From: Aminobacter sp. HY435
Lineage (GTDB): Bacteria; Pseudomonadota; Alphaproteobacteria; Rhizobiales; Rhizobiaceae
Direction: 5' to 3'
Assembly: GCF_027568395.1 (NCBI RefSeq)
Contig: NZ_JANKZL010000001.1
Location: 434,001-498,000, forward strand
DNA length: 64,000 nucleotides
Shown here: positions 21,942 through 23,916 of the stretch, piece after piece
Numbering within the stretch: position 1 is the stretch's first letter
How the letters are laid out: each line of letters starts with the position of its first letter
Position numbers and translations under genes: made by a program
Notes under the pieces: generated by a model
Told to the model about the DNA's origin: nothing
The model's database searches: none
Seen by the model: the letters and a program-made list of their open reading frames with translations, nothing else

Positions 21942-22682
21942 ATGACCGAACGCAGCCTGATCGCCACGTCGTTTTTGCCCATTTCCGGCTCCTCGCCTGT
22001 CGAATGGCGAATCGAGCCCGGCCTCACCCCTTACGATCGGGCGCTGGCCTTCATGGAATCGCGCGCCGACCAGATTCGCCAGGGCACGTCAGGCGAGCTT
22101 GTCTGGCTTGTCGAGCATCCCCCGATCTACACCGCGGGCACCAGCGCGCAGGAATCGGATCTCGTCGATCCCGACCGCTTTCCGGTGTTCAAGACCGGAC
22201 GTGGCGGCGAATACACCTATCACGGGCCGGGACAGCGCGTGGCCTATGTCATGCTCGATCTCAAGCGCCGACGCGAAGACGTCCGCGCCTTCGTTGCAGC
22301 ACTGGAGGCATGGATCATCGAGGCACTTGCGTCGTTCAATGTGAAGGGCGAGCGCCGCGAAGATCGTGTCGGCGTTTGGGTGGTCAGGCCCGATCGCCCG
22401 GCCCTGCCCGGCGGGTCGCCGGCCGAAGACAAGATCGCCGCCATCGGCATCAGGTTGCGCCGCTGGGTTTCCTTCCACGGCATAGCGATCAATGTCGAAC
22501 CGGAACTCGGCCACTTCTCCGGCATTGTGCCTTGCGGCGTCAGCGACCATGGCGTGACAAGCCTGGTCGACCTTGGCCTGCCGGTGACGATGGACAACCT
22601 CGATGTCGCCCTGAAGGTTGCATTCGAGAATATCTTCGGTCCGGCGGAAGTTCCCCTCGCAGCGCTCAGCGAGACTGCCTGA
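21942..22682 (+). CDS. lipB: LipB, octanoyl-[acyl-carrier-protein]:protein octanoyltransferase
   Basis: 246 residues. [17 protein letters not shown] (about residues 50-66), [21 protein letters not shown] (about 86-106, the RGG-x-T-x-HGPGQ signature), [20 protein letters not shown] with the catalytic Lys replaced in the family position near GIR, and [17 protein letters not shown] with the catalytic Cys are all visible. The enzyme transfers octanoate from ACP to lipoyl domains for lipoate synthesis in the cytoplasm. It stands alone, divergent from the tRNA gene. Confidence 0.93.
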
Positions 22683-22848
22683 GACCACTCTTGGTGATCC
22701 GGGGCCCGGATGACGGAACGCGGGCTGGAGCCGCACGCACAGGGGCATTGCCCCGTAGCCGCCGTCGGTGGAGCCCGCGGGCGACGAGCTGCGGGCAAGC
22801 CCGCACCCCTTGTCCAAATACAGGGAACAGGTCCCCAGCGGGCGCTCG
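22683..22848. other. Intergenic stretch with GC-rich hairpins after lipB
   Basis: No gene is seen. GGGGCATTGCCCC and TGCGGGCAAGCCCGCA form short hairpins; either could end the lipB or microprotein transcript, but neither has a T-tract. The stretch 22993-23226 on the other side of the SOS boxes also shows no gene. Confidence 0.5.
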
Positions 22849-22935
22849 TCAGAGCGCGCCGATCCACATGGCCATCGTGACAAGAAAGGCGCTCATGCAC
22901 ACCATCGAGACGACATCCTGGATCAGATCGGTCAT
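22849..22935 (-). CDS. 28-residue single-pass membrane microprotein with SOS-box promoter (SidA-like candidate)
   Basis: The minus-strand frame runs from ATG 22935 to TGA 22849. AGGAG sits 6 bases before the ATG, an ideal ribosome site. The product starts MTDLIQDVV and continues as one hydrophobic helix (about residues 8-28, containing CMSAFLVTMAMWIGAL). Upstream lies TTGACA (22992-22987) overlapped by three GAAC half-sites spaced 7 bases apart, the alphaproteobacterial LexA operator pattern. Caulobacter SidA is a 29-residue inner-membrane SOS-induced division inhibitor; the size, topology and control match, though sequence homology cannot be claimed. The gene could be a different SOS-induced membrane peptide. 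Confidence 0.7.
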   Translation of the reverse strand: MTDLIQDVVSMVCMSAFLVTMAMWIGAL

Positions 22936-22957
22936 AACTCGCTCCTGTTTTTAATAT

Positions 22958-22983
22958 GTTCGTAATTTGTTCTATTTTTGTTC
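22958..22983 (-). promoter_or_regulatory. Tandem overlapping SOS (LexA) boxes
   Basis: Plus-strand GTTC occurs at 22958-22961, 22969-22972 and 22980-22983, each separated by exactly 7 bases, making two overlapping GTTC-N7-GTTC boxes. This is the LexA-binding form known in alphaproteobacteria. They lie between the TTGACA -35 (22992-22987, minus strand) and the microprotein's ribosome site, where repressor would block transcription. Confidence 0.8.
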
Positions 22984-23226
22984 AAATGTCAACGCGAGCC
23001 ATTGCGTTGCGGCGGCAGGCAGCCACGGCAAGAGAATCGACAGTAAACAAAGGATTTATGCGCGCGAGCGCCAGCCGTCCTCCGTTAAGGAAAGCGGCTC
23101 AGCGCGCGATCTGAAGCAAATTGAGCGGAGACCTGGTATCCAGGGGCAGTCGTGGACGACAGCAGCGGATAGGCGCACAGCCCGCGCGCGCCGGCACCGT
23201 CAGCGTCCGGCACGCCGCGCCAGGCG

Positions 23227-23916
23227 CTAGCGCAGCGCCACGACCTTGCCGTCGGCCAGCGTCACCCGACGGTCCATGCGCGCGGCGAGTTCGTGATTGT
23301 GGGTCGCGATCATCGCCGCCAGCCCCGACTGCCTGACCAGCGCCGAAAGCGCGTCGAACACATAGCCGGCGGTCACCGGATCGAGATTGCCGGTCGGCTC
23401 GTCGGCCAGCAGGACCAGGGGCGCATTGGCGACCGCACGGGCGATCGCCACGCGCTGCTGTTCGCCGCCCGACAATTCGGACGGCCGATGCTGCGCCCGC
23501 TTGCCGATCTTCATGTATTCGAGCAGCATGCCTGCCCGCTCGCTCGCTTCCTTGCGCGACAGACCTTTTACCAGCTGCGGCATCATCACGTTTTCCAGCG
23601 CCGAGAATTCCGGCAGCAGGTGATGGAACTGGTAGACGAAGCCGACGTCGTTGCGGCGGATCGCGGTGCGTTCGTCATCCGACAGCCGCCCGCAGGCGCG
23701 TCCGTTGAGGATGACATCGCCAGCGTCGGGCCGCTCGAGCAGCCCGGCCGTGTGCAGCAGCGTCGACTTGCCGGCGCCGGAAGGCGCCACCAGCGCCACC
23801 ATTTCGCCGGGCTTCAGCGAAAAGTTGGCGTTGTTGAGGATCGTCAGCTTGCGAGACCCCTGCTCATAGTGGCGTTCGACGCCCTTGAGCTCGATAACGG
23901 ATTCGATGCCCATCAT
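23227..23916 (-). CDS. lolD: LolD, lipoprotein-releasing ABC transporter ATP-binding protein
   Basis: 229 residues from ATG 23916, which overlaps the lolC stop as ATGA. Walker A is [11 protein letters not shown] (near residue 44), the Q-loop [20 protein letters not shown] is typical of LolD, the signature is [14 protein letters not shown] and Walker [14 protein letters not shown]. It powers extraction of outer-membrane lipoproteins from the inner membrane to LolA, together with the upstream permease. It is the last gene of the proS-lolC-lolD unit in this window. Confidence 0.95.

Follow-up and report, generated by a model that had tools for sequence, protein, structure and literature searches.

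A LexA-boxed single-helix microprotein of Rhizobiaceae, a probable counterpart of the Caulobacter division inhibitor SidA

SidA is a 29-aa inner-membrane inhibitor that is LexA-controlled, induced in the SOS response and acts via FtsW, as described in passages of PMC4211646; its gene appears as CCNA_02004 in part of PMC11034885. The same passages of PMC4211646 call yneA, divS, chiZ and sidA unrelated genes, and that paper also gives A246T and F145L as ftsW suppressors. The Caulobacter LexA box is given as GTTC-N7-GTTC in sections of PMC12700426 and PMC9578287, which is GAAC-N7-GAAC read from the opposite strand. In the accessible parts of the open-licence literature, SidA was found in connection with Caulobacter only, and no account of rhizobial division arrest after DNA damage was found in that literature. 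The main text of a small-protein study of S. meliloti contains none of the terms 'SOS', 'lolD' and 'lipB'. Occurrences of 'sida' in PMC9638019 and PMC10811719 proved to be the Sidak test and were discarded.

Here we describe a short open reading frame (ORF) from Aminobacter sp. HY435 (Rhizobiaceae; assembly GCF_027568395.1, contig NZ_JANKZL010000001.1, positions 434,001 to 498,000), which we file, on comparative sequence grounds, as a new member of a SidA family that would be wider than the accessible literature describes. The window is this whole stretch of 64,000 nucleotides, and positions below refer to it.

The reading frame and its LexA-type boxes

The locus comprises the following features.

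21942..22682, plus strand: lipB, lipoyl ligase A/B domain (Pfam), the convergent downstream neighbour
22823..22836, minus strand: weak terminator-like hairpin of 5 pairs directly past the ORF, a pattern match only
22849..22935, minus strand: 28-codon ORF (stop 22849-22851) for a SidA-like single-helix microprotein, from reading frame, conservation and coding pattern
22942..22946, minus strand: Shine-Dalgarno AGGAG, with the ATG 6 nt further on; leader conserved in relatives
22958..22972, minus strand: proximal LexA-type box GAAC-N7-GAAC, with one half-site common to the distal box
22969..22983, minus strand: distal LexA-type box GAAC-N7-GAAC, from pattern and conservation in the named loci
22987..22992, minus strand: -35 element TTGACA, its TTGAC retained in 79 of 80 named loci
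23227..23916, minus strand (start codon approximate): lolD, ABC transporter ATPase, the upstream neighbour after proS-lolC

The ORF runs from ATG to TGA and encodes 28 aa, MTDLIQDVVSMVCMSAFLVTMAMWIGAL. A single membrane helix is predicted from one hydrophobic segment with a top 17-residue Kyte-Doolittle mean of 2.01. The peptide has no K or R and two D/E, giving a net charge of -2; the rhizobial peptide set ranges from -1 to -3. Look-ups of three rhizobial peptides in NCBIfam and Pfam returned no family match. Elsewhere in the window, two ORFs at about 18.1-18.6 kb and 21.0-21.3 kb have the stretch VHKSHQVIVETLFGRP in common, which suggests an element that is repeated or decayed.

Three GAAC half-sites, whose starts recur every 11 nt (22958-22983), form two overlapping GAAC-N7-GAAC boxes between the -35 TTGACA and the ORF. 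No consensus sigma-70 promoter was found at the locus. The whole window has one exact triple; with at most one mismatch there are 2 overlapping matches against 0.22 expected, a count reached in 1 of 100 shuffles of the window. Single boxes are another matter: the window has 3 against 1.7 expected (at least 3 in 27 of 100 shuffles), and in the genome the counts are 63+62, where the reversed pattern gives 51+57. A lone box was thus rejected as evidence and, since single boxes are not rare, those at the locus carry weight via position and conservation only. Two exact boxes are present in 54 of the 80 named loci described below, one in 25 and none in 1, and 27 of the 30 loci from the first peptide search carry one or more exact boxes no farther than 75 nt away. 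A GANTC site upstream of the ORF, found in 33 of the 80, was dropped.

The lexA family has one match in the own genome, at 176177 of its contig, with a GAAC-N7-GAAC directly above it at 176108-176122, and another such box lies above an ORF with an SSB domain (Pfam). Elsewhere in the genome, these boxes above lexA and ssb are the ones that could be tied to SOS genes. A sequence-only reading had proposed a 28-codon minus-strand frame with an AGGAG, one membrane helix, a TTGACA -35 and three half-sites in 7-base spacing forming two overlapping boxes under LexA control. The frame, the 6-nt AGGAG-ATG gap, the -35 and the box layout were all recovered as described, and the helix agrees with the single hydrophobic segment. 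LexA control of the microprotein is well supported by the sequence, given a box type that matches those of the own lexA and ssb, its place between the -35 and the ORF, and one or more exact boxes in 79 of 80 loci. The simplest reading of the layout is occlusion of the promoter by LexA, and the overlapping double boxes might point to tight repression.

Conservation and gene order in Rhizobiaceae

When the DNA stretch was compared with 81 genomes, the nine other genomes of the genus matched over near-full length, and weaker matches came from several further genera of the family. A peptide search of the 81 genomes (E<=10) matched 30. The peptide is 28 aa long in 27 of the retrieved loci, 30 aa in L052 and longer in L063; L068 was set aside as a chance match. 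A scan of named genomes with a 9-row alignment, from which the best 80 of 127 loci were kept, covers mostly Mesorhizobium and Aminobacter, plus Aquamicrobium and metagenome bins; in all 80 the peptide is exactly 28 aa, in 28 versions. At E<=0.01 a 22-sequence profile finds a match in 315 of 394 family genomes, spanning 95 of 109 genera. Across the class, at E<=0.05, it matches 9 of 384 other genomes (10 of 385 including the own genome); the match in one of these nine, G403, is a micro-ORF above dnaE that was later located by position too. Some family genomes (G697, G762, G848, G897 and others) have two to four profile matches each, a possible sign of duplication or mobility of the peptide.

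The pattern of change is that of a protein-coding sequence. The median dN/dS is 0.15 over 2637 pairs and the pooled pN/pS 0.30 (77 distinct of 104 coding sequences), and entropy at codon positions 1, 2 and 3 is 0.33, 0.02 and 0.84 in 60 distinct close sequences. It is on this pattern that the coding case rests, because one other frame is likewise open in 46 of the 60. Compared with 16 relatives in 20-nt bins, the window sequence has an identity of 0.75-0.90 between -60 and +79, of 0.55 in the bin spanning the stop and of 0.22-0.47 beyond the unit; the conserved unit thus extends from the -35 through the stop. Separate from the promoter, a patch at 23036-23055 on the minus strand (-120 to -101 from the ATG; ATCCTTTGTTTACTGTCGAT) has an identity of 0.70 in the 16 relatives. 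Both comparative checks that the sequence-only reading had proposed, conservation of the frame in related genomes and synonymous against nonsynonymous change, came out in its favour, and by comparison the ORF is taken to be a real gene.

Gene order is conserved as well. In 69 of the 80 named loci proS, lolC and lolD lie upstream on the same strand and lipB downstream on the opposite strand; the other 11 have a subset of these genes or a different arrangement, and some of these 11 may be misfiled, since in eight of the 80 a nearby contig end puts the locus off-centre and the upstream/downstream test used a fixed position. Other genera supplied 18 loci (L178-L195), 13 of them with lolD directly upstream. 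The order proS-lolC-lolD-microORF-dnaE is found in four other genera (L184, L187, L190, L195), with dnaE (Pfam) on the same strand. L179 and L183 have kept lipB with no lolD within 4 kb, and L186, L192 and L193 have neither lolD nor lipB. In the window lipB occupies the spot that dnaE has in some other genera, and the best DnaE match of the own genome is on another contig. The simplest account is that proS-lolC-lolD-peptide-dnaE is the ancestral order of the family and that Mesorhizobium and Aminobacter no longer have dnaE there.

Relation to the Caulobacteraceae peptide above dnaE and spread in the class

Caulobacter genomes were located via the CcrM of the Aminobacter genome and its solved relative CcrMI (6pbd), MipZ having been of no use as a guide. 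With CcrMI, which we take to be of Caulobacter origin, genome G572 gave a match of 352 residues at 100%. Sixteen genomes passed the cut-off (of 200), 15 of them from a single genus (g355), which is taken to be Caulobacter. The gene sidA is presumably CC1927, adjoining dnaE. The latter is CC1926 in a table of PMC1839093. We placed dnaE in 20 CcrM-similar genomes and used 19 of the regions (G300 was left out), 17 from Caulobacteraceae (f98) and 2 from another family (f150).

A first scan found a boxed one-helix ORF above dnaE in 11 of the 19 regions, and a looser scan of the remaining eight added seven, for a total of 18 of 19 with a one-helix SidA-like ORF. Six of the seven had been missed by the exact-box filter and L278 by the hydropathy threshold; L277, also from Caulobacteraceae, has boxes, but neither scan recognised a peptide there. 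In both L277 and L278 pairs of LexA-type boxes stand 18 nt apart above dnaE. A 29-aa one-helix ORF lies directly before dnaE in 15 of the 17 Caulobacteraceae regions, 9 of them with an exact box. The peptide of G572 is 29 aa long, with possible alternative starts 4 and 11 codons upstream. A match to lolD was found upstream in 17 of the 19 fetched stretches; in Caulobacter it is about 1.1 kb from the peptide. This is the place where the published data fit SidA, and we call the 29-aa ORF SidA by its place, length, box and genus.

The rhizobial and Caulobacteraceae peptides have D/E7, A/S10 and F17 in common when aligned from the Met without gaps. Set against set, zero shift is the best of 13, with 415 of 100000 column permutations as good, or 1430 of 100000 when permuted within segments. 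The single pair of the window and G572 peptides is identical at 4 of 28 positions, a score that is not significant (5577 of 100000 permutations are as good, and a 6-residue shift outscores the Met register). Alignment with hhalign put residues 1-18 on 1-18 without a gap (P 4e-4, with a probability of only 35%). The two sets differ in charge: the rhizobial one is at -1 to -3 net, and the Caulobacteraceae peptides have R6 and mostly R/K3.

The rhizobial profile alone scored seven Caulobacteraceae SidAs at 2.3-5.6 bits, equalled by 5-33 of 293 decoys that themselves included six Caulobacteraceae SidAs. Once nine bridging peptides had been added, all from other families, none from Caulobacteraceae and chosen after the rhizobial-alone result was known, the same seven scored 11.7-19.9 bits. 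Removal of nine family members from the decoys (L196, L063, L032 and the six Caulobacteraceae SidAs) left 284, of which at most one is as good: dec272 at 16.7 bits, from L090, itself a profile match; the next scores 5.2 bits. L198, which has the same gene order, and L278 of Caulobacteraceae (...VRDTLSLASCGGFVW...) look like bridges in sequence. Homology of the two sets is supported by profile similarity, most strongly via intermediates. The suggested relation to SidA is in this way supported by synteny (lolD-peptide-dnaE), length, Met register and profile similarity, and the comparison goes further than a counterpart, to a probable orthologue at what looks like one inherited chromosomal position.

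Other families were sampled through 60 regions above dnaE, hand-picked among the matches listed of 371 genomes, some of these matches possibly being a second dnaE. Of the 60, 17 have an exact box no more than 900 nt away, followed in 15 cases by a one-helix ORF of 20-60 aa that starts 25-90 nt past the box. Eight controls (antisense, reversed and swapped boxes, spacings of 5, 6, 8 and 9, and a position farther upstream) gave 0 of 60 in seven cases and 1 of 60 in one. The motif [DE]xx[AS] stands near the start of nine of the 15 peptides, and a lolD match lies inside the fetched stretch in 10; the 15 regions are drawn from 10 families and are therefore not 15 independent events. The other 45 regions have no such peptide by this filter, possibly through loss, relocation, divergence, a second dnaE or a filter that is too strict, as it was in Caulobacter.

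L196 (G017:C37:51337-51420; MRDLVQDTCSFVAMGLFLISAAFWIGAL) and L197 (G025:C27:37437-37517; MRDLLHDIASFVAVSTFIATFAVWAGYLAEKV) are second copies of the peptide, neither with a GAAC-N7-GAAC in the preceding 110 nt. Their surroundings are prophage-like, with RecT, exonuclease VIII and HNH in L197 and a repressor-like gene and a PHROG of unknown function in L196, and the copies are possibly phage-borne division blockers. No relative was found among viral contigs with the rhizobial 9-row alignment, among phage records with the L196 peptide as query, or on plasmids. We tentatively propose, at somewhat less than even confidence, that SidA is an ancestral alphaproteobacterial SOS division checkpoint at the lolD-dnaE site under LexA, its helix diverged almost beyond recognition, and that some prophages carry copies free of LexA boxes that could stop host division at a time of the phage's choosing.

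Proposed function and comparison with known systems

The most probable explanation is that this ORF encodes SidA in its rhizobial form, an orthologue that acts on FtsW/I/N after DNA damage; a function other than division control is rather unlikely. Counted for orthology were conservation, dN/dS, box type, synteny, profile similarity and a Caulobacteraceae peptide of equal size class and register; counted against it were the 4/28 identity with its non-significant single-pair score, the hhalign probability, the low scores of the rhizobial profile alone, the later choice of the bridging peptides, the charge difference, the gap of about 1.1 kb to lolD in Caulobacter and the 45 of 60 empty regions. 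In the proposed mechanism, LexA would hold RNA polymerase off the promoter until RecA-stimulated LexA cleavage after DNA damage. The peptide would then enter the inner membrane as a single helix, and the face with S/A10, F17, W24 and A27 would pack against FtsW, with FtsI/FtsN, keeping the septal wall-synthesis complex inactive and delaying constriction during DNA repair. The least variable rhizobial positions after the Met are 7, 17, 27, 10, 22 and 24. Periodicity of conservation peaks at 105 degrees among nine angles tried, which is helix-like but weak, and positions 10, 17, 24 and 27 would lie on one face. A 2026 study, in the passages available of PMC13396833, places SidA against TM7 of FtsW in a prediction short of high confidence. 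The acidic and basic N-termini could reflect a different topology or contact.

A SidA homologue might instead have been retargeted, becoming a one-helix peptide that regulates a different membrane protein under SOS induction. Its charge pattern and the latter half of its helix are unlike those of Caulobacter SidA and the profile aligns residues 1-18 only, but D/E7, A/S10 and F17 are retained and promoter logic and neighbourhood are alike, and we consider this unlikely. TisB of E. coli is a short SOS-regulated single-helix peptide. DinQ of the same species is described in part of PMC3567139 as a short SOS-regulated hydrophobic peptide. Being short, hydrophobic and SOS-controlled itself, the window peptide could likewise damage or depolarise the membrane, probably together with an antitoxin RNA. 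We regard this as slightly less likely still: synteny and register tie the peptide to SidA, its net charge is -2 with K/R absent, Rfam gave no match within 22600-23300, and in 16 relatives no DNA beyond the unit is conserved save the -120 to -101 patch, although an unconserved RNA may exist.

Much less probable is a leader peptide or regulatory stub for dnaE, as might be suggested by the families in which dnaE lies downstream on the same strand; the unit persists with a convergent lipB in 69 of 80 loci, conservation stops at the stop codon and change is mainly synonymous. Single GAAC-N7-GAAC boxes are common enough that a chance ORF with chance boxes might be considered, yet the 80 named loci, the 315 of 394 genomes, the dN/dS and the island from -35 to stop contradict it so broadly that its probability is negligible.

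With a conserved LexA-boxed candidate gene, damage-induced division arrest in rhizobia becomes open to direct tests. A SidA family of wide spread, in which D/E7 and F17 hardly vary, would also supply an evolutionary map of the surface that maybe touches FtsW, which is beyond the reach of one species. In legume bacteroids, division stops and DNA replication continues; because bacteroids replicate DNA without dividing, the peptide may be of interest there.

Among known systems, DidA of C. crescentus is likewise a small one-helix division inhibitor on the FtsW/I/N complex (passages of PMC4211646), but it has 71 aa, is SOS-independent (DriD) and is encoded by a separate gene, CCNA_03212. YneA of B. 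subtilis, SosA of S. aureus and ChiZ of M. tuberculosis are also damage-induced membrane inhibitors, with FtsW binding shown for YneA and predicted for the others (passages of PMC13396833); they come from different phyla, with a LysM domain in ChiZ and an extended helix in SosA. TisB and DinQ differ by antisense RNA control and a membrane-damaging mode, whereas the window locus has no sign of an antitoxin RNA. SidA of C. crescentus (CCNA_02004) differs in that only 4 of 28 residues are identical, the N-terminus is acidic here and basic in SidA, a convergent lipB takes the place of dnaE, and a role in division is a prediction here. It is alike in its LexA-type box, its one helix, its length (28 aa here, 29 in SidA) and the Met register of D/E7, A/S10 and F17, and some relatives of the window locus have the peptide before dnaE with lolD upstream. 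This suggests that a SidA-type division brake may be far more widespread than the single studied example.
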